This document shows positions 1 to 10,483 of a stretch of DNA of 64,000 nt, one piece after another. Position 1 is the stretch's first letter, and each line of letters starts with the position of its first letter. A program made the translations under genes and the position numbers. The DNA is from Spongiibacter taiwanensis (GTDB taxonomy: Bacteria > Pseudomonadota > Gammaproteobacteria > Pseudomonadales > Spongiibacteraceae). The stretch lies in NCBI RefSeq assembly GCF_023702635.1, contig NZ_CP098455.1:1364001-1428000 (forward strand), read 5' to 3'. Below the pieces are notes generated by a model. It was not told where the DNA came from. It worked only from the letters and a program-made list of their open reading frames with translations, and searched no databases.

Positions 1-486
1 CAGCGTGAGCTTGTCTTTGGTCGCAACAAAAATCTGCGCCGACGCATCTTCGCCCAGGGCAGAAAAGCCAACTGGCGAGGGAATGTGTCGATCCAGCAAA
101 TGCCCATCCACCACCGTATTCTCAGTGGTATTGACCAACCAGTGGCTGGCATTCACATACCCCGTCTCTGGCGCCCGGGGATACAGCCCGTACATTGACA
201 TAACGGCGGCCGACTTGACCCGCAGCGCGTCCAGGCCCCAGGACGCACTTTGGTTCAGCAGCACACCACTAATTCCGAGCCAGGCCATGAACAGAAAGGC
301 GAACAAGCCGGCCCGCTGGTGCCACTGTCGAAGCACCATCGTCAGGTTTTTCTTTGCGCCGCCGGGCTTCGACGACGACCCTACCGCCCGCAGCTTAGGC
401 ACCTTTTTCAATAAGGCTTTGCGCATGACCGTTTGCCCGAGTACAACTTTGTCTTTGCCAGCGTCTGCAATGTCTATATCAGCCAT
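1..486 (-). CDS. PepSY-associated transmembrane protein, N-terminal part (runs off the left edge)
   Basis: Reading leftward from an ATG at 486, the frame stays open to base 1, so only the first 162 residues are visible. After a basic N-terminus comes WHQRAGLFAFLFMAWLGISG (about residues 55-74), the 'WH.wxGl' start of the first membrane helix in PepSY-TM proteins, followed by an extracytoplasmic stretch. Family members are inner-membrane proteins often paired with flavin, haem or siderophore reduction; the substrate here is unknown. It lies 29 bp beyond the FMN-binding gene and is probably the fourth gene of the operon starting at 2781. The C-terminal PepSY and later helices are outside the window, so the family call rests on the first helix and the context. 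Confidence 0.6.
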   Translation of the reverse strand, partial: MADIDIADAGKDKVVLGQTVMRKALLKKVPKLRAVGSSSKPGGAKKNLTMVLRQWHQRAGLFAFLFMAWLGISGVLLNQSASWGLDALRVKSAAVMSMYGLYPRAPETGYVNASHWLVNTTENTVVDGHLLDRHIPSPVGFSALGEDASAQIFVATKDKLTL

Positions 487-515
487 AAAAGAACCTCACT
501 CTCATCGTTATTTTT

Positions 516-1055
516 TCACTGAATCAGACTGTCAAACACGATAGCCGTCCACGCCATTCGCTCCATCATCTGAACCGAAAGGGTTGCACCGGTGATATTG
601 TCCACCTCGACATCAAGTCCTGATGGCGTCGCCTTGGCACCGTACAATTGCTGGAGAAACGACGGTTCAGCCACCTGCTCACCACGAGACTCTCTGTAGA
701 TAAGCACCTTTGCCACTTCCACACTCTGATTACTGATCACAAATCCGCAGGTTGTTGGCACGTAGCCCTCCTTGCCAATATCGTCGAAGATCCACACACT
801 TCTGTCGCCGTCCTGCCAGTAACGGAGCCGTTGCTGGGGAAAATTTCGCTTGAATGCCTGGGCTACTTTCCCCTGGTCGCTCGCAGATAACTCCAACACC
901 TTTGGTGCCGGCACCTGGCCATTGAAGACCTCTTTTAGAAACACCTCCGGGGTTTGAAAGGTTTTGTAAAGTTCAAAGGCTTGAGCAGCGCCGCTAGACC
1001 ACATCAACATCGCTGCCAGTACCGCAAATAATCCTCGCGTAATATCGCCACACAT
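516..1055 (-). CDS. Secreted FMN-binding domain protein
   Basis: This 179-residue protein has a signal peptide (residues 1-26, ending SSGAAQA before FEL) and a C-terminal FMN_bind domain. The motif DNITGATLS near residues 152-160 matches the TGAT-type site at which ApbE transferases attach FMN through phosphate to threonine in NqrC, RnfG and NosR-type proteins. I infer a periplasmic, covalently flavinylated electron carrier. No ApbE gene is visible here, so one must lie left of the window or elsewhere. The frame stays open to 1136, but the ATG at 1055 follows a purine-rich GGCGGGGAAA and starts directly at the signal peptide, so I chose it. It sits between a globin gene and a PepSY-TM gene in one direction. 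The electron donor and acceptor are not visible. Confidence 0.75.
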   Translation of the reverse strand: MCGDITRGLFAVLAAMLMWSSGAAQAFELYKTFQTPEVFLKEVFNGQVPAPKVLELSASDQGKVAQAFKRNFPQQRLRYWQDGDRSVWIFDDIGKEGYVPTTCGFVISNQSVEVAKVLIYRESRGEQVAEPSFLQQLYGAKATPSGLDVEVDNITGATLSVQMMERMAWTAIVFDSLIQ

Positions 1056-1250
1056 TTTCCCCGCCTCGCTATATTTGTCGCTGCTGCTCTTGCGCCAGCC
1101 TGCTACCGCTATATCACTTGACAACATATCAACCACTACCTGTCTAAATCGTTTCTGAAAGGTTCGAGAATCGGCGCCGTGCTGAGATCTTCACTGGCTT
1201 TGCAGTACACGCAGCGCGGGCAAACTGCAGAGCCAGCGAGAACCGCCCTA

Positions 1251-1712
1251 CTAGCGCGTCACAATCACCCGCTCGTATGGTGCCAGCGCGGCAATCAGCT
1301 GATTGCAGGCTTCATAAGTAACCTCAACGCGCTCACAAGCCTTATAGGCCGCCTCAACCACGGCGTTAAACTGGGTAACAGTGATACCAAGATCAGCATG
1401 AGCAGCTGCCATACTTGCCCCCTGATATTGCACATCACCACCGAGCACCAGTTGCTCCAGCTGGGTATTGAGAAATATCTGCCGCTCAACGTTGCCAAAC
1501 TCGCGGAAGATATGGTTTATGCGGTTATCCAACATGATGTAGTAGAAAAGACTCTCTACCCAGTTGCGGATACCCTCTTTCCCGCCCCACTGCTCCAGTG
1601 CATCGTCATCCAGCGGCGGCAGGGTTTTTGTTTTCCCGGTCTGTGCCTGCAAGGGCATGGCGCAGGCAAACATCAGGGAAATAAACATTAGATACTTAGC
1701 AAATGTCTTCAT
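1251..1712 (-). CDS. Exported group 1 truncated hemoglobin
   Basis: The 153-residue product has a signal peptide (residues 1-24, hydrophobic core then PLQAQ) followed by a truncated globin fold. Family landmarks are GGKEGIRNWVESLFYY (helices A-B, with tyrosines at about 57-58 near the B10 position), the LGG turn, and SMAAAHADLGIT, where His105 should be the proximal haem ligand. Group 1 globins bind O2 and NO, and several act in NO dioxygenation; most are cytoplasmic, so an export signal is unusual. The ATG at 1712 has a GAGGAA ribosome site and is preferred over the longer frame to 1805, which would overlap the upstream gene. It lies 31 bp after the DUF3034 gene. An NO- or O2-related role outside the cytoplasm is inference. 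Confidence 0.8.
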   Translation of the reverse strand: MKTFAKYLMFISLMFACAMPLQAQTGKTKTLPPLDDDALEQWGGKEGIRNWVESLFYYIMLDNRINHIFREFGNVERQIFLNTQLEQLVLGGDVQYQGASMAAAHADLGITVTQFNAVVEAAYKACERVEVTYEACNQLIAALAPYERVIVTR

Positions 1713-1743
1713 TGTGTATTCCTCAAGTCGTCCTGGTTGCCAG

Positions 1744-2781
1744 TTAGTAGCTCGCCTGCAATGACAGATAGAAGCCATGCTGGTCCGGAGTGATGGTGAT
1801 ATCACCGAGCCAGGCGTAGGCGAAGGTCATCGACAGGTTCTTATTGGGGAAGTAAGCAACGAAGGCATCAAACCAGTCACTTTCGTTTTGGGTGAGCGTG
1901 CCCGATAGATTTCCGAGCCCCAAGCCCTCGAGGGTCGGTTGTAGTTCGGTGACGTCAATTCCCCCTAGCTCGACGCTTTCTCCGCTGAGATTATCCCCGT
2001 GCTGGGCCCACTCCATGCCGATTACCGTGTCCTTCTTCAGCAGATAGGCGAGGGATATTTCCGGCCGAACCTCCTTGTCGTTGCCGTCGGGCCCGCCAAA
2101 GCCGACTAAGCCCGTCTGGTTCGCTGACGTATACCGTGCAGTGATATTGACCAGGGTATTGATGGGAAAGAAGATTTTTGTCGCTGAGACGTAGTATTCC
2201 CACCCATCGCTTTCGGCCGCCTTCAAGGTTCTAAGCAGTTCTTCATTTTTGTTCTTTTTGTAAAATGCGCCCACAGCAACTTGTGGAATTAGATTATCCG
2301 AGTCGTAGATTGCCTCACCGAAGACTCTGACCTTGGCACCATAAACATCCATTTCAATGGTGGTGTTAAAGGGCTCAATACCGGTTTCAATCGGTGCCCC
2401 CAACCCGCCAGTGACGCCGCCCAAGGTGTCCACCACCAAGCCCACCGTGTCGAAGGTCGAGCCAGTTGTAAGGTTGCTCTTGGCGTAAGACAGCTCAAAG
2501 CGGTCAAACAAGCCTACCGCCGCACCTAACGAATGAAGGGTGTAGTTGGCCAACGGCGCATAGGTATAGTGAACATCGCCGTTTATACCATCTCGCGTTG
2601 CATAACCCGTGATTGTCGCCCAGGGTGTAATCCCGCCACCGCCGGCACCATCAATCATACTAACGCCCCCTGTCGCCAGCACTTTGCCGTCGTTATAGAG
2701 ACCCGCATTAGCGCAAAAACCTGCTGACATACCAACTGCCGCGGCAATTGGTTTTACCCAACGCCCAATTCGATTTTCCAT
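1744..2781 (-). CDS. DUF3034 family protein, predicted outer-membrane barrel
   Basis: The 345-residue product resembles DUF3034 in its characteristic runs: GKVLATGGVSMIDGAGGGG near the mature N-terminus, then GYATRDG, PQVAVGAFYKK, LVGFGGPDG, WFDAFVAYFPNKNLSMTFAY and a C-terminal GFYLSLQASY. A signal peptide occupies about residues 1-24. Alternating beta strands and an aromatic C-terminus suggest an outer-membrane barrel, and the family has no settled function. The ATG at 2781 follows GGAGCGGGAAAT and is preferred over the longer frame to 2862. This is the first gene of the operon and sits about 150 nt downstream of a sigma-54-type promoter, so it is probably made under nitrogen limitation or nitrate growth (inference). 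Confidence 0.75.
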   Translation of the reverse strand: MENRIGRWVKPIAAAVGMSAGFCANAGLYNDGKVLATGGVSMIDGAGGGGITPWATITGYATRDGINGDVHYTYAPLANYTLHSLGAAVGLFDRFELSYAKSNLTTGSTFDTVGLVVDTLGGVTGGLGAPIETGIEPFNTTIEMDVYGAKVRVFGEAIYDSDNLIPQVAVGAFYKKNKNEELLRTLKAAESDGWEYYVSATKIFFPINTLVNITARYTSANQTGLVGFGGPDGNDKEVRPEISLAYLLKKDTVIGMEWAQHGDNLSGESVELGGIDVTELQPTLEGLGLGNLSGTLTQNESDWFDAFVAYFPNKNLSMTFAYAWLGDITITPDQHGFYLSLQASY

Positions 2782-2938
2782 ATTTCCCGCTCCTACCCAA
2801 ACAATGGTTTGATCATCTATGTTGAATGTAAATTTGGGTGCTGCGGCCTCACTCGAAAGCAAAGCATCCGTGGTTTTTACTCACCCGAGAGTGAGCGCCT
2901 CACAGCACGCCACTTATTTGTGCCGGCACAATAAGTTC

Positions 2939-2954
2939 AGCAATAGCTATGCCA
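2939..2954 (-). promoter_or_regulatory. Sigma-54 promoter for the DUF3034/globin/flavin operon
   Basis: On the minus strand the site reads TGGCATAGCTATTGCT, matching TGGCAC-N5-TTGCW with the invariant GG-N10-GC. The predicted start is near 2928, leaving a leader of about 147 nt before the ATG at 2781. It has the same TGGCAY-AGNNA-TTGC form as the three promoters of the nitrate genes in this window. Confidence 0.6.
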
Positions 2955-3232: not shown

Positions 3233-4951
3233 TCAGTCAAACAGACTCAGCATCAGCAGAATAAACAACACTGCCGAGACAGCCTGCCAAAAGCGTAGCG
3301 GGTTTCGCGCCACCAGAGGCTGCTTGCGACGGAGGGAAAAAGCAGGGTTAGGGTAGCGCAGGTCGTGAACAAATTCGGCCACATCGGCGTAGCGTAGCTC
3401 CGGGCTGATGCTCATCCCCTTTTCCAGAGCGGCATCAAGCCACAAGGGCACATGAGGATTGACCTGACTGGCAGGAACGTAATGCAAACGTCGGTATGCC
3501 ACCGCGCTGGCACACTCTGCCAGCTTACCGGCGAAAGGCTGCTTACCGGTGAGCATCTCAAAGACCACCACCGCCAGCGCAAACTGGTCCGCTCTGGCCG
3601 TTACCGGCCGCATCAGCACCTGCTCCGGCGCCGAATAGTGGGCAGTACCCAGGCAATATTCGCGGGGGATGGGTGACGAGATCTCCGCTAGCCCGGCAAC
3701 ATAGCAGGAGCCGAAATCGATAATGCAGGCTGAGCCATCCGGGCGCAGCAGTATATTTTCCGGCTTGATGTCCTGATGCAAGGTATCCCGGCGATGCATG
3801 GCCAACAGTCCCCGCGCCACCTGCTCGGCGATGGCCACCACCTCCCGGGGCGAGGCATCAGGATGGGTTTTAATCCACTGCGCCAGGGTCTGGCCGTCTA
3901 TGTATTCGGTCAGGTAATAGAGGCAGGAAGGCGCGGCTTCCCGCTCCACCACCTCCACCACATGGGGGCTGGCAATCCGGCGGCCAATCCAACTCTCCAT
4001 GACAAAGCGTTCAAGATAGGCCGGATCGTCCTGGAAATTAGCCGAGGGGGTTTTCATCGCCAGCAGGTGACCGCTGGCGATGTCTTTGACTTTATAAATC
4101 TGGCTGCGGGCGCTGGCGTGAATCTCCGCGATCACCTCCAGGCCGTCCAGCCGGTCCCCAACGCTCAACTCCGGCGGAAATGGCAAGGCCGTCAGGCGCC
4201 GATATACCTCGTCTGCGTCCTCTCCCGGCAGCGCATCCAGCCGTAACAGCTGGCAACTGATATTGTCGTCGCTACCCGCCTCCAGCGCCGCATCGACCAA
4301 TCGCGCACAGCAGGCATCCAGGTTATCGCCAGCCTGGCCCAATAGCCCGGCAATGGCGGTTGAACTGAGCACACCGTGCAGACCATCGGTGCTGAGTAGA
4401 AACAGGTCGCCCTGCTCCACATCAACGCTGCGATAATCGACTTCCAGACTGACATCCAGCCCCATGGCCCGGGTCAGATAACTCTGGTTTTCACCAATAT
4501 GACGCGCATGATCACGACTCAGCGGCTCCAACACGCCGCCGCGAAAGCGGTAGATCCGACTATCACCCACATGAAACAGGTGGGCAGTGCGAGATTTGAC
4601 AATGGCAATGCTCAAGGTGGAGATGTAGCCCTTTTCCGCCTTGGCAAAATGACTTCCTTGGCTGTACAACCAGCGATTCAGGGCTGAAATGACTTGATGA
4701 GCGGAGCGCTTGACCGACCAGGAATCCGGCGTGGAGAAGTAGTCCTGCAAAAACCCGCGAACGCAGGTTTCCGCCGCCTCTTTGCCCGCCTCTGCCGCAG
4801 AGACCCCATCAGCAATCACCGCGACCACCCCCTTGGTAATCACGGTGTGCCCTTCGGGAATCAGCATCCCGAGGCTGTCCTCATTGATGGGCTTGCGTCC
4901 GGCGGTGCTCAGTTGCGCCGCCGAACACCGTAACCCGGCATCCAGGTACAT
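3233..4951 (-). CDS. Fused PP2C-type phosphatase and Ser/Thr protein kinase with C-terminal membrane anchor
   Basis: The 572-residue protein joins two opposing activities. Residues 1-240 form a PP2C domain with the metal-binding signatures NEDSLG, ADGVS, GDSRIYR, STDGLHG and DDNISC. Residues about 268-530 form a protein kinase with the lysine in LLAMKTP, the catalytic loop HQDIKPENILL (HQD replacing HRD) and DFG in IIDFGSCY; the glycine-rich loop is weak. A single helix at 550-570 anchors it in the inner membrane. Its stop is followed by about 370 bp before the next gene. It lies 28 bp after the nitrate transporter, so they are probably cotranscribed. The same association of kinase, NasA and NirBD occurs in Pseudomonas aeruginosa (PA1781-PA1783). 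Modulation of nitrate assimilation is inferred; the targets are unknown. Confidence 0.85.
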   Translation of the reverse strand: MYLDAGLRCSAAQLSTAGRKPINEDSLGMLIPEGHTVITKGVVAVIADGVSAAEAGKEAAETCVRGFLQDYFSTPDSWSVKRSAHQVISALNRWLYSQGSHFAKAEKGYISTLSIAIVKSRTAHLFHVGDSRIYRFRGGVLEPLSRDHARHIGENQSYLTRAMGLDVSLEVDYRSVDVEQGDLFLLSTDGLHGVLSSTAIAGLLGQAGDNLDACCARLVDAALEAGSDDNISCQLLRLDALPGEDADEVYRRLTALPFPPELSVGDRLDGLEVIAEIHASARSQIYKVKDIASGHLLAMKTPSANFQDDPAYLERFVMESWIGRRIASPHVVEVVEREAAPSCLYYLTEYIDGQTLAQWIKTHPDASPREVVAIAEQVARGLLAMHRRDTLHQDIKPENILLRPDGSACIIDFGSCYVAGLAEISSPIPREYCLGTAHYSAPEQVLMRPVTARADQFALAVVVFEMLTGKQPFAGKLAECASAVAYRRLHYVPASQVNPHVPLWLDAALEKGMSISPELRYADVAEFVHDLRYPNPAFSLRRKQPLVARNPLRFWQAVSAVLFILLMLSLFD

Positions 4952-4979: not shown

Positions 4980-6452
4980 TTAGCTCACTTCCACCAGGGC
5001 GACACTGCCATCGTCGTTCAGCTCGGCGACATGGCCCTGGGGCTCTTCCAAAAATTGCACTGCAATAAAGACCACCCCGGCGCAGGCCGCAATCACCATA
5101 AAGAACTGGGAGGCATCCACAAAGGACAGCACAGTCAGAAAGATCACCGCACCAACATTACCATAGGCACCCGTCATGCCGGCGATCTGCCCAGTCATGC
5201 TGCGTTTCACCAGCGGCACAATGGCAAACACCGCACCTTCACCCGCCTGAACAAAGAACGAGCAGCACATGGTTGCGATCACCGCCAACCACACCGGCCA
5301 GCCCGCATCGACCTGGCTCAGCACCATATAGCCCACCGCCAGACCAGCAACCAAAATAGTAAGGGACTTGCGACGACCCACCTTATCGGACAGGTAACCA
5401 CCGCCAGGGCGCGCCACCAGATTCATAAAGGCAAAGCCGGAAGCCAACAAGCCCGCTTTCACCGCACTCAACTCAAAGGTCTCCATAAAGAACAAGGGCA
5501 ACATGGAGACCACCGCCAGCTCGGAGCCAAAAGTAACAAAGTACGACACATTCAAAATTGCGACCTGCTTGAATTTAAAGCGCTGCATCTCCGGCATCGG
5601 GATCCCTTTCAATACATCGCTGTTCACCCGCAAAATCTGGCTGACCTGAAACACAAACAGTGCACCCAGGCCCAGATAGATAATATTAGCGGCCACGCCG
5701 GTCAACAGACCCAGGTTGGATGGGGACAGCTTCCAGGTCAGCACCGCCAGCGCCAAATACATGGGCACGCACATGGCAATATAAAAGTAGAGGTCCCGCC
5801 GACTACTAACCACCAGCCCGCCCGACTTTTTCGGTTTGAAATAGGTAGACCCTTTAGGCGTATTGCGCGCCCGAGTGTAAAAGAACACCCCGTAGAGCGC
5901 CGCAATCACACCGGTGCTGGCAATGGCATAGCGCCAGCCGTCCTCACCGCCAAACATCAGCGCGACAGTGGGCAGCGTCATCGCTGCAGCCGCCGAGCCA
6001 AAGTTGCCCCAGCCACCATATACCCCCTCGGCCAGCCCAACTTGCTTGGCGGGGAACCACTCGCCCACCAAGCGAATGCCAATCACAAACCCGGCGCCAA
6101 TGAAGCCCATAAAGAAGCGCATCATGGCGATCATTTCGTAGGAATTGGCAAAGGCAAAGCCGCAGCAGATACCGCCCCCAATCACCAACAAAGAACTAAA
6201 AACGATGCGGGGCCCCAGGCGATCGACCAGCATCCCGATAATCACCCGGGCCGGAATCGTCAGCGCAACGTTGAGAATCATCAGGGCTTTAACTTGCTGA
6301 CCGGTGAGATCGAAGGCCTCTTTGATCGCAGCCAGCATGGGCGCATGGTTGAACCACACCACAAAGGTAAGAAAGAAGGCGAACCAGCTCAGGTGCAGCA
6401 GGCGGATTTTATCCTGCTTAATATCCAGCAGGTTCAGATTAGACGATGACAT
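4980..6452 (-). CDS. nasA: Nitrate/nitrite transporter of the major facilitator family
   Basis: The 490-residue protein has twelve predicted membrane helices and the NarK/NasA nitrate-porter pattern: [14 protein letters not shown] in helix 1, [12 protein letters not shown] in the first loop, [20 protein letters not shown] and GNFGSAAA (nitrate signature) and a second [11 protein letters not shown] signature in the C-terminal half. It should import nitrate across the inner membrane for assimilation. It is divergent from nirB across a 404-bp region that carries a perfect sigma-54 promoter for each side, and the kinase/phosphatase follows it. The ATG at 6452 starts [10 protein letters not shown] and lies about 28 nt after the predicted transcription start. 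The symbol follows the assimilatory context; a nitrite antiport ability cannot be excluded. Confidence 0.88.
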
Positions 6453-6490
6453 GAAAACTCCGAAAACAGATAAAGCGACGCAGACCCCGG

Positions 6491-6506
6491 AGCAATTGCT
6501 GTGCCA
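6491..6506 (-). promoter_or_regulatory. Sigma-54 promoter for nasA
   Basis: The minus strand reads TGGCACAGCAATTGCT, a perfect TGGCAC-N5-TTGCW match. The predicted start is near 6480, about 28 nt upstream of the nasA ATG. Confidence 0.75.
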
Positions 6507-6572
6507 GCAAGCATGAAAACCGCCTCAAAACAAACGTATCTATTTGTTTTCTATGAATTAAATAAAAATAAC

Positions 6573-6684
6573 GCACCATTATGAGTCATTTCAGGGCGGC
6601 CATTCCATTCCTCAGCGCCCCAGAAGAGCACCAAAATAAATCATTGCGCCCCATCATTTCGCAAATATTCCATTTTGGCGCACC
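6573..6684. promoter_or_regulatory. GCACC half-sites between nasA and nirB, possible NtrC enhancer
   Basis: Half-sites are GCACCATT at 6573, GCACCAAAAT at 6628-6637, GCGCCAAAATG on the minus strand at 6671-6681 and GCACC at 6680. They sit about 95 to 160 bp upstream of the two divergent sigma-54 starts, the usual distance for an NtrC enhancer. No single site is a full palindrome. The surrounding DNA is markedly AT-rich compared with the genes. Confidence 0.4.
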
Positions 6685-6759
6685 TTATAAATGCCCCAAA
6701 ATATGGCAATTTAATTTTTTTAACTTATATTTCAATAGCTTAAATATAAAAATCAGTCA

Positions 6760-6775
6760 TGGCATAGGTATTGCT
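6760..6775 (+). promoter_or_regulatory. Sigma-54 promoter for nirBD
   Basis: The plus strand reads TGGCATAGGTATTGCT, with GG-N10-GC and one deviation (T for C) from TGGCAC-N5-TTGCW. The predicted start is near 6786, about 70 nt before the nirB ATG. Confidence 0.65.
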
Positions 6776-6780
6776 TTCCC

Positions 6781-6834
6781 ATTCATCAGCGAATCCCTGA
6801 ATGAATTACCTCGTCGGGCAACCTTCCCCGACGA
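6781..6834 (+). promoter_or_regulatory. Two hairpins in the nirB leader
   Basis: The leader can fold ATTCATCAG (6781-6789) with CTGAATGAAT (6797-6806, one bulge), then TCGTCGGG (6811-6818) with CCCGACGA (6827-6834). The second hairpin ends just before the ribosome site AAAGGA. There is no U-tract, so a terminator is not supported; a role in translation or mRNA stability is possible. Confidence 0.25.
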
Positions 6835-6856
6835 ACAGAAGTAAAGGACCACCACC

Positions 6857-9409
6857 ATGACAAACCCCACACGCCTGCTGGTTATCGGCAACGGCCCGGT
6901 CGGCCACCAATTTCTTGAATCCCTCGTCGACAGCGGCAAGGCCGGGGAATTTGCCATCACGGTAATTGGTGAAGAGCCCCGCCCGGCCTACGATCGCGTC
7001 CATCTCACCGCCTGGTTTGAAACCCGCAAAGCCGAATCCCTCAATATGGTGAAGGAGGGCTTTTACGAGGCCAACCACATTACCGTGAAAAATGGCGAAA
7101 AGGCGGTGGCCATCGATCGGGCGAACAAAATCGTCAGCACCGACCAAGGCGAGCAATACCCGTACGACATTATGGTGCTCTCCACCGGCTCGTTCCCCTT
7201 CGTCCCTCCGGTACCGGGCCACGACCGGCAAAACTGTTTCGTTTACCGAACTATAGAAGATCTGGAAGCAATCACCGCTGCCTCTGCCAACGCCAAAGTG
7301 GGCACCGTGGTCGGTGGCGGTCTGCTCGGCCTCGAGGCCGCCAAGGCAATTAAAGACCTGGGCCTGCAAACCCATGTGGTGGAGTTTGCCCCCCGCCTGA
7401 TGGCGGTACAGGTTGACGACGGCGGCGGTGCCCTGCTGCGCCGCAAAATCGAAGACCTGGGTGTAACCGTCCACACCCAGAAAAACACCCAGAACATTTC
7501 CGACGGTGAAAGCTGCGTTCACAAAATGAACTTTGCCGATGGCAGCGAGCTGGAGACCGACATCCTGGTCTTCTCCGCCGGTATTCGCCCGCAAGACGCT
7601 CTGGCCCGCCAGAGCGAACTGGAGATCGGCGAGCGCGGCGGCATTGTCATCAACGACTACTGCCAGACCTCAGACCCCAGCATTTACGCCATTGGCGAGT
7701 GTGCCCTCTGGGGCGGTCGCATTTACGGTCTGATTGCTCCCGGCTGGGATATGGCCCGGGCCGCCGCCGACCACGTGATTGGCAGCGTACAAGGCCTGGC
7801 CTTTACCGGCGCCGACATGAGCACCAAACTGAAATTGATGGGTGTGGACGTAGCCTCCATTGGCGACGCCCACGCCAACACTCCCGGCGCCAAGTGCTAC
7901 ACCTTCATTGACGAGCAGGCCGAGGTTTACAAAAAGATCGTGGTCAGCGAAACCGGCGAACACCTGCTGGGCGCCGTCTTGGTGGGCGACGCCGAAGACT
8001 ATGGCAACCTGCTCCAATTTGCCCTGAACAAAATCACCCTGCCCAAGCACCCCGAGGCAATGATTCTGCCCCAGCTCGACGGCAGCGCCAGCGTTGGCCT
8101 GGGCGTGGACGCCCTGCCCGACACCGCCACCATCTGTAGCTGTAATAACGTTAGCAAAGGCCAGATTTGCGCCGCCGTTCAGGACGGTGCCCAAACCGTG
8201 GGTGACCTGAAAGCCTGCACCAAGGCCGCAACCACCTGTGGCGGCTGTACCGCGCTCGTTGGCCAGGTACTCAACGCCGAACTCACCAAGCTGGGTGTGG
8301 AAGTGAACACCGATATTTGTGAACACTTCCCCTACACCCGCCAGGAAATTTATCACCTGGTGCGGGTTGGCCAGATCAAATCTTTTAATGAGCTGCTCGA
8401 AAAACACGGCACCGGTCTGGGCTGCGATATCTGCAAACCTGCCGCTGCCTCAATTCTGGCCTCCTGCTGGAATGACTATATTCTCCAGCCCGAGCACGCC
8501 GGCCTGCAGGACACCAACGATCGCTTCCTGGCCAATATGCAGAATAACGGCACGTTCTCCGTGGTGCCCCGCATGGCGGGCGGTGAAGTCACCCCGGATG
8601 GCCTGATCGCCGTGGGCACCGTCGCCAAAAAATACAACCTCTACACCAAAATCACTGGCGGCCAGCGGGTGGACCTGTTCGGCGCCACCGTCGATCAGCT
8701 GCCACTGATCTGGAAGGAACTGATCGACGCCGGCTTTGAATCCGGCCACGCCTACGGCAAGTCTCTTCGCACGGTGAAATCCTGCGTGGGCTCCACCTGG
8801 TGCCGCTACGGCGTGCAGGACAGCGTTGGGCAGGCTATCGACCTGGAAAACCGCTACAAAGGTCTGCGCAGCCCCCACAAGCTGAAAATGGCCGTATCCG
8901 GTTGCACTCGGGAATGTGCTGAGGCCCAGAGCAAGGACGTGGGCGTGATCGCCACCGAGAAGGGCTGGAACCTGTATGTGTGCGGCAACGGCGGCATGAA
9001 GCCCCGCCACGCCGATCTGTTTGCCTCGGACATCGACACCGAAACCCTGGTCAAGTACATCGACCGCTTCCTGATGTTTTACGTCCGCACCGCCGACCGC
9101 CTGCAACGAACCTCGGTGTGGATGGACAACCTGGAGGGCGGCCTCGACTACCTCCGCAAGGTCATCATTGACGACTCGCTTGGCATCTGCGCGGAACTGG
9201 AAGCGGAAATGCAACAGGTCGTTAACACCTACCAGTGCGAGTGGAAAACCACCATTGAGAACGAGGACAAGGTCAAGCAATTCCGCAGCTTTGTAAACGC
9301 CGAGGGTGGCGACAAAGACATCGTGTTTGTACAGGAACGCGGCCAGATTCGCCCCGCCACCGAGGAAGAGAAGCAAACCGCCGACAACCTGATCGCGGTG
9401 GCTTCTTAA
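6857..9409 (+). CDS. nirB: NAD(P)H-dependent assimilatory nitrite reductase, large subunit
   Basis: This 850-residue protein reduces nitrite to ammonium in the cytoplasm with six electrons from NAD(P)H. Residues 1-400 are the FAD/NAD(P) oxidoreductase part (GNGPVG, GGGLLGLEAAKA, YAIGECA). Residues about 425-475 form the BFD-like [2Fe-2S] region with CSCNNVSKG and CGGC. Residues 550-800 hold the sulfite/nitrite reductase half-repeats with the siroheme/[4Fe-4S] cysteines in CVGSTWC and SGCTRECAEA. Length is normal for NirB. The ATG at 6857 follows AAAGGA. nirD follows after 34 bp. Transcription likely starts at the sigma-54 promoter at 6760. No siroheme synthase gene is seen in this window. Confidence 0.95.
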   Translation: MTNPTRLLVIGNGPVGHQFLESLVDSGKAGEFAITVIGEEPRPAYDRVHLTAWFETRKAESLNMVKEGFYEANHITVKNGEKAVAIDRANKIVSTDQGEQYPYDIMVLSTGSFPFVPPVPGHDRQNCFVYRTIEDLEAITAASANAKVGTVVGGGLLGLEAAKAIKDLGLQTHVVEFAPRLMAVQVDDGGGALLRRKIEDLGVTVHTQKNTQNISDGESCVHKMNFADGSELETDILVFSAGIRPQDALARQSELEIGERGGIVINDYCQTSDPSIYAIGECALWGGRIYGLIAPGWDMARAAADHVIGSVQGLAFTGADMSTKLKLMGVDVASIGDAHANTPGAKCYTFIDEQAEVYKKIVVSETGEHLLGAVLVGDAEDYGNLLQFALNKITLPKHPEAMILPQLDGSASVGLGVDALPDTATICSCNNVSKGQICAAVQDGAQTVGDLKACTKAATTCGGCTALVGQVLNAELTKLGVEVNTDICEHFPYTRQEIYHLVRVGQIKSFNELLEKHGTGLGCDICKPAAASILASCWNDYILQPEHAGLQDTNDRFLANMQNNGTFSVVPRMAGGEVTPDGLIAVGTVAKKYNLYTKITGGQRVDLFGATVDQLPLIWKELIDAGFESGHAYGKSLRTVKSCVGSTWCRYGVQDSVGQAIDLENRYKGLRSPHKLKMAVSGCTRECAEAQSKDVGVIATEKGWNLYVCGNGGMKPRHADLFASDIDTETLVKYIDRFLMFYVRTADRLQRTSVWMDNLEGGLDYLRKVIIDDSLGICAELEAEMQQVVNTYQCEWKTTIENEDKVKQFRSFVNAEGGDKDIVFVQERGQIRPATEEEKQTADNLIAVAS

Positions 9410-9443
9410 GCGTCCGCCACATCAATACCACAGGAATCTCAAC

Positions 9444-9770
9444 ATGAACTGGACTCCCGTCTGCAAAATCAACGACATCCTCCCCAATGCGGGGGCCGCC
9501 GCATTGCTGGGGGAAACCCAGGTGGCGATTTTTCGGGTGAACGATGCGTTTTATGCCCTTGCCAATCGCGACCCCTTCAGCGGCGCCAATGTCCTTTCCA
9601 GAGGGATCGTAGGTAGCCTCAACGGCAAGCTGGTCGTCGCGTCACCGATTTACAAACAACACTTTGGCCTCGAGGACGGCGCCTGCCTGGAAGACGCTGA
9701 TGTCACCATTCCCTCCTACCCGGTACGCATCGAAGGCGACGCCGTGCAGGTGGGCATGACAGCAGAATAG
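9444..9770 (+). CDS. nirD: Assimilatory nitrite reductase, small subunit
   Basis: The 108-residue NirD partners NirB. It has the Rieske-like beta fold of the family (ICxxxDI-type start, IFRVNDAFYALANRDPFSGANVLSRG, VASPIYKQHF) but, like other NirD proteins, lacks the C-x-H and C-x2-H cluster ligands, so it carries no iron-sulfur centre. It lies 34 bp after nirB in the same operon. A short C-rich/G-rich inverted repeat (about 9772-9788) follows the stop, without a clear U-tract. Confidence 0.93.
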   Translation: MNWTPVCKINDILPNAGAAALLGETQVAIFRVNDAFYALANRDPFSGANVLSRGIVGSLNGKLVVASPIYKQHFGLEDGACLEDADVTIPSYPVRIEGDAVQVGMTAE

Positions 9771-9955
9771 CCCCTCCCCTTTGGGGGTTATACAAGAAGA
9801 TGGGCAAACCACGGTAAGTCTCCACACTAACCGGCCTCCGGCGGCTCCCCCGCTGCCGGGCCGGATTTTTTTTGCCCTTCGCTTCCCCAGCCTTAGCGTT
9901 TATACTCGACGGACTTTTTTAACCCTAAAACCCACCCTGGAAAACGGAATTCAGC

Positions 9956-10483
9956 ATGAGCTACTCTAAAATTCCCGCGGGCAAAGAGCTGCCCCACGAC
10001 ATCTATGTCGCCATTGAAATCCCTGCCAACAGCAGCCCCATCAAGTACGAAATCGACAAAGACGCCGACTGCCTGATGGTTGACCGTTTCATGGCCACCC
10101 CCATGTTTTACCCTGCCAACTACGGTTACATCCCCAACACGCTGTCTGAAGACGGTGACCCGCTGGACGTGCTGGTGGTGACGCCCTACCCCGTGGTACC
10201 CGGCTCAGTAATTCGCGCCCGCCCCATCGGCATTCTGAACATGAGCGACGAAGCTGGCCAGGACGCCAAACTACTGGCCGTTCCCCACGACAAGCTGAGC
10301 GTGCTGTACAAAGACGTGAAAGAGCCCTCTGACCTGCCCGAGCTGCTGATTCAGCAAATCGAGCACTTTTTCGAGAACTACAAAGATCTGGAAAAAGGCA
10401 AGTGGGTTAAAGTTGACGGCTGGGCAGGCAGCGAAGCTGCACTCGCAGAAGTCACCAAAGCCGCAGCAGCCTACAAAGGCTAA
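9956..10483 (+). CDS. ppa: Inorganic pyrophosphatase
   Basis: This 175-residue family I soluble pyrophosphatase hydrolyses PPi to two phosphates in the cytoplasm, pulling biosynthetic reactions forward. The conserved start [19 protein letters not shown], the KYEIDKD substrate loop, NYGYIPNT and the metal-binding signature [11 protein letters not shown] are all present, as are the later DAKLLAV and [10 protein letters not shown] elements. It is a single-gene unit with a GC-rich hairpin immediately downstream, unrelated to the nitrite genes. The start ATG at 9956 lies just after an A-rich spacer. Confidence 0.96.

Follow-up and report, generated by a model that had tools for sequence, protein, structure and literature searches.

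A DUF3034 protein, an exported-type truncated globin and putative flavin- and haem-protein genes behind a sigma-54-type promoter site in Spongiibacter taiwanensis

Introduction

PepSY-like flavinylation systems, in which a PepSY_TM protein is encoded near an FMN-binding protein or an ApbE gene, have been described as electron-transfer systems tied mainly to iron (Meheust et al. 2021, PMC8238504), and one of the proteins relevant here, FoxB, is given as a two-haem protein in a preprint on flavinylation (PMC10979944). In Bradyrhizobium, the nitrate-assimilation operon narK-bjgb-flp-nasC supplies a haemoglobin and a flavoprotein that counter nitric oxide (NO) (PMC6965051). In cable bacteria, truncated globin domains are fused to periplasmic cytochromes, for which a role in O2 reduction has been proposed (PMC11976967). 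Here, we describe a locus of Spongiibacter taiwanensis in which genes for a DUF3034 protein, a truncated globin, an FMN_bind protein and a PepSY_TM protein, referred to below as the quartet, lie beside genes of nitrate assimilation. The window analysed is the 64,000-nucleotide stretch G000:C1:1364001-1428000 of a 3.7-Mb genome assembled as a single contig.

The initial annotation of this locus knew of no described pathway that combines the four genes, and we likewise found no description of the combination, nor of a DUF3034–globin pair, in the open-licence literature. The words globin and hemoglobin are absent from the main text of PMC8238504, and neither globin nor DUF3034 is mentioned in the main text of PMC10979944. 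Nothing was found in the open-licence literature on Zhongshania in connection with nitrate assimilation.

Results

Conservation of the quartet

Conservation was analysed in 33 loci, 12 from Spongiibacteraceae (L002 and L023-L033; L034-L040, from family genomes already counted, were left out) and 21 from bacteria that we refer to as Nevskiales-type (L041-L061). The latter represent the genera Solimonas, Nevskia, Sinimarinibacterium, Stenotrophobium and Oceanococcus, together with metagenome-assembled genomes; 17 of the 21 are Nevskiales, the others being Oceanococcus (L049, placed in Chromatiales by NCBI) and metagenome-assembled genomes of unplaced Gammaproteobacteria (L053, L057) and of Lysobacteraceae (L058). 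L041 and L042 overlap on one contig, and L043 and L044 are near-identical. Genes in the GC-rich loci were located by homology searches; annotation by longest open reading frame was rejected for these loci because of false antisense frames (clusters c8, c15, c17, c18 and c22, judged by eye).

All four quartet genes are present in 31 of the 33 loci. The exceptions are L049, where the contig ends, and L042, which is a second DUF3034–globin copy on the L041 contig. Conservation of the gene neighbourhood, which the initial annotation had singled out as the point to check, is thus borne out, and a chance neighbourhood is rejected, the quartet having been kept together in relatives. Among 21 Spongiibacteraceae genomes, a globin orthologue occurs in 12 (E 2e-66 to 1e-101), always with the other three genes. 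The globin search matched 18 of the 21 genomes in all; the remaining six matches (L015-L020) reached only E 4e-7 to 6e-5, were not counted as orthologues, and had none of the other quartet genes beside them. Carriage on a plasmid is unsupported, since the 12 matches of the globin in the plasmid collection all fall below 60% identity.

A 954-residue tetratricopeptide repeat (TPR) protein is encoded in exactly the 12 genomes that have the globin and in 0 of the 9 others. The probability of this co-occurrence by chance would be 1 in 293,930 if the genomes were independent, which they are not. Within the DNA of the loci themselves, the TPR gene is found in 8 of the 12 Spongiibacteraceae loci and 15 of the 21 Nevskiales-type loci.

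Tandem second copies of DUF3034 and globin occur in two contigs (L041/L042 and L046), without a second FMN_bind gene. Judged from these copies, the DUF3034–globin pair appears to duplicate as a unit.

Promoter and leader

Upstream of the DUF3034 gene lies a sigma-54-type promoter motif, TGGCAT-N5-TTGCT, and motifs of like form precede narK and nirB (Table 1). Genome-wide, the pattern TGGCAYN5TTGCW has 12 matches, compared with 3 for the reversed control, and 3 of the 12 are located within 3.9 kb at this locus. In the related loci, we searched for GG-N10-GC in the context TGGCAC/TTGCW, a consensus given also in PMC12316311, with a threshold of at least 10 of 12 positions. Such a site is found 5′ of DUF3034 in 30 of 31 scorable loci, 127–259 bp before the start codon. 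Elsewhere in these loci, 41 of 1261 windows of 450 bp score as high, and some of these are probably genuine promoters. L046 scored low, its best match belonging to the second of two tandem DUF3034 copies, while L047 and L056 have no upstream DNA. Because the site is conserved in all 12 Spongiibacteraceae loci, at 127–212 bp from the start, we conclude that it is not there by chance. A search for NtrC-type dyads in 30 loci gave a mean best score of 8.2 of 12 versus 7.4 in shuffled sequences.

In the Nevskiales-type leaders, an intrinsic terminator with a T-run precedes DUF3034 in all 19 loci with upstream DNA. By the rule applied, a hairpin with a six-base loop lies 5′ of the terminator in 14 of the 19, with G at loop position 4 throughout and A (12 loci) or G (2 loci) at position 1; in 16 aligned leaders, 11 of the 18 predicted pairs change on both sides. 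The RNA targets of ANTAR proteins have been described as a pair of hairpins with A1/G4 hexaloops upstream of a terminator (PMC3369931). The Nevskiales-type leader may be an attenuator of this NasT/ANTAR type; of the two hairpins of the known targets, one hexaloop hairpin was recognised here. A search of the L045 leader against Rfam returned no match over threshold; the best, SR6_antitoxin, scored below its gathering threshold and probably reflects a shared hairpin/terminator shape. No such terminator was found in the Spongiibacteraceae leaders examined (11, and that of L002).

Association with nitrate assimilation

The globin gene lies within 16 kb of NirB in 9 of the 12 Spongiibacteraceae genomes. 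In the other three (G004, G007 and G018), the globin lies outside this range but the TPR block is about 6 kb from NirB, so that either the quartet or its TPR block is found within 16 kb of NirB in 12 of 12. Genes for NirB or for NasS- or NasT-like proteins are present in 17 of the 21 Nevskiales-type loci; the NasS and NasT names derive from a single representative pair, which matched NMT1_2 and ANTAR. Such genes were not found in four loci: L042 shares its contig with L041, which does have them; L046 and L048 lie on short contigs (5.4 and 4.4 kb); and L047 is next to the end of its contig. On these neighbourhoods, the link of the quartet to nitrate genes is strong. NirB at 63% identity or above is encoded in 20 of the 21 family genomes and the globin in 12, and the globin system is therefore an optional extra to nitrate use.

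The DUF3034 protein and the globin

The DUF3034 protein matches PF11231 with 281 bits (cut-off 25) over profile positions 1–255 of 255. In its AlphaFold model (predicted local distance difference test score, pLDDT, 71.6), twelve long strands are seen. Among solved folds, it comes closest to outer-membrane barrels, FapF first, and to COG4313 channels, at low template-modelling (TM) scores (0.39–0.46 to FapF, normalised by query length).

Taken singly, the globin of the window falls just under the Pfam gathering score (19.9 versus 21 bits), and the FMN_bind protein under that of PF04205 (19.6 versus 22 bits). Both are nevertheless assigned, because the evidence at the level of the families settles the matter. 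For the globin, 23 named matches to the family profile are all globins, with TrHb1/GlbN/HbN chains first and 3aq7 the best (E 3e-14), and Bac_globin is found in 28 of 31 relatives. In an alignment of 31 rows, from which L042 and L044 were left out, His105 and the polar residues Gln78 and Asn82 are invariant. By profile homology and the invariant proximal histidine, we assign the protein as a group 1 truncated haemoglobin. Of the 31 relatives, 30 have the two cysteines Cys126 and Cys136 and one (L059) has neither, the pattern expected of a disulphide. The export signals of the globin and the FMN_bind protein were judged by eye.

The flavin, haem and copper proteins

PF04205 is recognised at E 0.01 or better in all 26 aligned relatives of the FMN_bind protein (best 2.9e-6). 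The motif D152-N-I-T-G-A-T, with TGAT at residues 155–158, is invariant in 12 of 12 sequences, and Thr158 in 26 of 26. We take this to be the flavinylation motif D-x-x-[ST]-G-A-[ST], in which Thr158 would presumably be the position of FMN attachment, as in NqrC. NqrC is also the top match to the predicted fold, albeit a weak one (E 2.8e-3, TM-score 0.39); a sequence search among solved structures found no relative of the FMN_bind protein.

PF03929 is present in all 27 chosen relatives of the PepSY_TM protein, in which His56 and His258 are the invariant histidines. At the last membrane segment, its profile is significantly similar to FoxB (7abw, E 4e-4), the similarity including a conserved histidine, and its middle part weakly resembles DAIP/Asp-box and sortilin-type proteins (E 2e-3). 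We read it as a protein with two transmembrane segments. As it is encoded near an FMN-binding or ApbE gene, it falls under the definition of a PepSY-like flavinylation system given in PMC8238504. ApbE itself is encoded once in the genome; in 13 of the 21 Nevskiales-type loci, its gene lies 3′ of PepSY_TM.

All 12 Spongiibacteraceae loci and 18 of the 21 Nevskiales-type loci have a cupredoxin gene. In both loci scanned, L051 (6597-8201, minus strand, with a weak barrel-like N-terminal match) and L045 (12943-14034, minus strand), the cupredoxin is fused to an OmpA domain, and may perhaps be a copper protein attached to the outer membrane. In L043, L044, L050-L053, L057 and L061, the OmpA–cupredoxin genes also have terminators at their approximate starts or shortly 5′ of them, in some cases together with a hexaloop hairpin, which suggests one antitermination regulon.

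Organisation of the locus

The four quartet genes are co-directional on the minus strand, within window positions 1–2954 (Table 1). The initial annotation had recognised this arrangement, together with the barrel-like DUF3034 protein, the proximal His105 of the globin, the TGAT motif of the FMN-binding protein, the PepSY-TM protein (its family match reaching E 4e-12) and the resemblance of the promoter to those of the nitrate genes, all of which agree with the analysis above. The limits that it set, 516–2954, exclude the PepSY_TM gene, which crosses the window edge and ends at L002:11590, 411 bases outside. The quartet stands, but as part of a larger unit: the same-strand genes continue past the window edge, and a run of four genes is rejected. 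Beyond the edge follow, nearly without gaps, genes for TPR proteins of 625, 954 and 207 residues, a small protein, a TolQ/ExbB protein, two ExbD proteins, a protein with a TonB/AgmX-like C-terminus and the cupredoxin (L002:2834-12486, including PepSY_TM); TPR, TonB and AgmX/PglI-type matches were obtained among these proteins. The whole run, of about 12 kb, is nearly four times the length of the quartet.

Table 1. Coordinates of genes and promoter-like sites in the window
Feature	Position	Strand	Remarks
Sigma-54 (-24/-12) promoter-like site TGGCATAGCTATTGCT	2939..2954	-	158 bp 5′ of DUF3034 start
DUF3034 protein, 345 residues	1744..2781	-	PF11231, E 1e-83; predicted 12-strand outer-membrane-type barrel, C-terminal aromatic residue
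Group 1 truncated globin, 153 residues	1251..1712	-	Signal-like N-terminus (by eye); His105; Cys126/Cys136 pair
FMN_bind protein, 179 residues (ATG start)	516..1055	-	Signal-like N-terminus (by eye); D-N-I-T-G-A-T at 152-158
PepSY_TM protein, 298 residues, N-terminal part	1..486	-	PF03929, E 4e-12; whole gene L002:11590-12486
PP2C / Ser-Thr kinase protein, gene located between narK and DUF3034	3233..4951	-	Named from sequence
NarK-type nitrate transporter	4980..6452	-	Named from sequence
Sigma-54 site TGGCACAGCAATTGCT (TGGCAC), 5′ of narK	6491..6506	-	
Sigma-54 site TGGCATAGGTATTGCT (TGGCAT), 5′ of nirB	6760..6775	+	
NirB-type assimilatory nitrite reductase large subunit	6857..9409	+	Named from sequence

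A homologue of the PP2C/kinase protein is encoded next to narK in L023 and L025 also. Just past the cupredoxin gene, beyond the end of the run, is a gene for an Alginate_exp/Opr-type porin (L002:902-2128, minus strand), preceded by its own sigma-54 site, TGGCATAGCGTTTGCT (L002:2456-2471, minus strand), which is one of the genome-wide matches. A second, different globin cluster was read by eye elsewhere in the genome, at about 5400–10235 (minus strand) of L108 (G000:C1:918001-934000). There, a single-domain globin is accompanied by proteins that carry CxxCH-type motifs and by an oxidoreductase that resembles nitrite reductases and has a membrane tail.

The DUF3034–globin pair in other Pseudomonadota

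DUF3034 is encoded in 18 of 369 genomes of the class and 39 of 398 of the phylum, the source genome being counted in both. We collected 44 other loci with 1.5-kb flanks, excluding the source genome; among the loci listed, eight other genomes with DUF3034 contributed none. A truncated-globin open reading frame adjoins DUF3034 in 38 of the 44 (on the opposite strand in L068), the six without being L067, L075, L077-L079 and L080, a cut contig. By crude patterns, 33 of the 38 globins have a Cys pair, 37 a proximal-His motif and 23 a lipobox-like stretch, and across the phylum (L063-L107) the truncated globin next to DUF3034 begins with a stretch that resembles a signal or a lipobox. A GGDEF-EAL gene is found in 28 of the 44 loci, its product having a HAMP domain in the single example scanned; a plastocyanin-like gene is found in 7 and a sigma-54 site in 5. 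At E 1e-20, the nitrate-type globin was detected in 1 of the 369 class genomes, the source, a limit that hides divergent DUF3034-linked globins elsewhere.

The four loci L075 and L077-L079, with DUF3034 and no detected globin, have sigma-54 sites scoring 10–12 of 12. In L075, a PAS/sigma-54-activator gene adjoins DUF3034, and L078 is alike by eye.

Discussion

A possible electron pathway to an exported globin

We interpret the locus as a nitrogen-starvation- and nitrate-responsive extracytoplasmic electron pathway round an apparently exported globin, whose output would likely be periplasmic NO dioxygenation. This account is tentative, and we hold it with somewhat less than even confidence. A membrane or cytosolic donor would reduce the PepSY_TM protein, a short one whose His56 and His258 are assumed to be haem ligands, and this would in turn reduce the periplasmic FMN_bind protein, in which ApbE would have linked FMN to Thr158 of the TGAT motif. 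From there, electrons would pass to the exported truncated globin, to the cupredoxin, or to both. The DUF3034 protein would form an outer-membrane barrel and serve the globin as a dedicated partner, either anchor or port, and the TPR/ExbB/ExbD/TonB-like block would be an energised envelope complex of the same system. Reduced oxy-globin would most likely convert NO and O2 into nitrate in the periplasm, sparing the cell the NO that arises from nitrite and giving the nitrogen back as nitrate. Such a system would correspond, in split and exported form, to flavohaemoglobin and to the Bjgb/Flp pair that serves nitrate assimilation in the cytoplasm.

Electron transfer through the envelope agrees with the presence of the PepSY_TM protein, with the FMN_bind protein and its TGAT motif, and with the ApbE genes of 13 of 21 Nevskiales-type loci. 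We rank periplasmic NO dioxygenation first because of the printed parallels, namely PepSY flavinylation, the globin–flavoprotein pair of Bradyrhizobium and the globins of cable bacteria; reduction of O2, reduction of metals and sensing are live rivals that we place below it. The initial annotation had likewise envisaged a trans-envelope electron system under nitrogen-type control, putatively dealing with NO or O2 by-products of growth on nitrate. The gene set, the conservation of the sigma-54 site and the nitrate link uphold that idea in part, but the unit proposed was too small. Its tie to growth on nitrate is sustained by the nitrate genes near the quartet and weakened by the DUF3034–globin pair occurring elsewhere without them.

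Several observations weigh against the NO dioxygenation pathway. ApbE is encoded beside the quartet in 0 of 12 Spongiibacteraceae loci and was not detected in 8 of the 21 Nevskiales-type loci, of which L046, L048 and L049 are cut before or at its place. The first segment of the PepSY_TM protein aligns with FoxB at a non-significant 2.8 bits. Tyr57 of the globin, which we take to be the B10 position, is replaced by Lys in 5 and by His in 1 of the 31 relatives, so that the chemistry of the pocket may vary. NirK was found above cut-off in 1 of the 21 family genomes, one without the module, and in none of the 12 that have it; a strong periplasmic source of NO was thus not found, NirS and NorB lying outside the search. 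Whether a genome has Hmp above cut-off bears no relation to the module (2 of 12 genomes with it and 2 of 9 without). Within locus DNA, ExbB is found in 8 of 12 Spongiibacteraceae and 3 of 21 Nevskiales-type loci, fewer than for the TPR protein, and ExbBD is therefore a less certain member of the system. Finally, FMN_bind, PepSY, ApbE, ExbB, ExbD, TonB-like, TPR954, NirB, NasS and NasT homologues were found in 0 of the 44 other DUF3034 loci within 1.5 kb (E 1e-5); on these absences, the DUF3034–globin pair is the broader unit, of which the nitrate-linked form is one special case.

Alternative functions

The electron-transfer genes might instead serve the acquisition of metals, the PepSY and FMN_bind proteins acting as a periplasmic ferric or cupric reductase together with the TonB/ExbBD-like block, so as to provide iron or copper for sirohaem and the Fe-S enzymes of nitrate use, while the globin stores or carries haem. 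We think this unlikely. PepSY-like clusters are indeed tied to iron reduction and TonB-type genes (PMC8238504), the PepSY_TM protein resembles the end of FoxB, and ExbB/ExbD/TonB-like genes share the run; yet the run proteins scanned included no recognisable TonB-dependent receptor, DUF2271 or DUF4198, and DUF3034–globin pairs are widespread without PepSY or FMN_bind within 1.5 kb. Control is, moreover, by the sigma-54 site and, in the Nevskiales-type set, the putative attenuator, Fur boxes lying outside the search. It also seems to us improbable that DUF3034 and the exported globin constitute an envelope sensor of O2, NO or redox state, signalling to the GGDEF-EAL protein elsewhere and here to the TPR/ExbBD/TonB-like complex or to a kinase. 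The frequency of GGDEF-EAL genes beside the pair, and the HAMP domain in one of their products, would suit a sensor, but no GGDEF-EAL gene was recognised in the nitrate-type runs read. The Cys pair and proximal-His motif kept in most globins of the other loci, and the PP2C/kinase gene between narK and the DUF3034 operon, are consistent with sensing, whereas the nitrate version holds FMN_bind, PepSY, ApbE and cupredoxin, none of which a pure sensor needs.

More doubtful again is an uptake or secretion machine, in which the TPR/ExbB/ExbD/AgmX-TonB block would energise an outer-membrane assembly with DUF3034 for the uptake of a nitrogen source or the export of the globin, the redox proteins merely maintaining it. 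The strict co-occurrence of the TPR protein with the globin (the same 12 of 21 family genomes) would be accounted for, as would the TPR, TonB and AgmX/PglI-type matches in the run. The fold of DUF3034 matches both FapF, a secretion channel, and COG4313, though at the low TM-scores to FapF given above, and no ExbB, ExbD, TonB-like or TPR954 homologue was found in any of the 44 other DUF3034 loci at the limits stated.

The pathway to an exported globin for NO dioxygenation can be set in a wider frame. DUF3034 and an exported truncated haemoglobin may form a phylum-wide outer-membrane haem module that is coupled in many Pseudomonadota to cyclic di-GMP signalling and, in Spongiibacteraceae and the Nevskiales-type bacteria, drawn into a nitrate-assimilation regulon. 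With a flavin/haem relay and with a TPR/ExbBD/TonB-like complex driven by protons, it would there work as a periplasmic NO dioxygenase that turns NO back into nitrate at the cell surface. As a whole, this broader proposal strikes us as rather unlikely. The near-constant presence of an exported globin gives DUF3034, an orphan family, a partner and with it a testable role. The locus suggests that haemoglobin chemistry is placed outside the cytoplasm during nitrate assimilation, whereas the Bradyrhizobium counterpart counters NO in the cytoplasm. If the proposal is true, flavinylation-driven electron transfer in the envelope extends from iron to nitrogen metabolism.

Comparison with known systems

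The locus shares with the other DUF3034–globin–GGDEF-EAL loci of Pseudomonadota the placing of DUF3034 next to a truncated globin whose N-terminus resembles a signal or a lipobox. It differs in that 44 of those 44 loci have no FMN_bind or PepSY gene within 1.5 kb, in that 5 of the 44 have a sigma-54 site, and in that their globins have a different Cys pair and often a lipobox. With the PepSY-like flavinylation systems of PMC8238504 it has in common a PepSY_TM protein encoded near an exported FMN-carrying protein, often with ApbE. The partners are different, DUF3034, an exported globin and a cupredoxin here and DUF2271/DUF4198 in the systems set out there, as is the control, which is of nitrogen type here and of iron type there (Fur boxes being outside our search).

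The proteins do not conform to the flavohaemoglobin or Bjgb-Flp type: the N-termini are signal-like by eye, and no NAD(P)H domain was recognised in the proteins scanned. The likeness to narK-bjgb-flp-nasC of Bradyrhizobium, as that operon is presented in PMC6965051, lies in a haemoglobin and a flavoprotein tied to nitrate assimilation, with the control of NO that we propose here. There, however, a single-domain haemoglobin acts on cytoplasmic NO with an FAD-dependent NAD(P)H flavoprotein, whereas here the components are an exported TrHb1, FMN_bind and PepSY_TM. As in the account of cable bacteria in PMC11976967, a truncated globin would be the periplasmic end point to which electrons flow; in those bacteria, it is fused to pentahaem cytochromes, and the partners named there do not include DUF3034, FMN_bind or PepSY.

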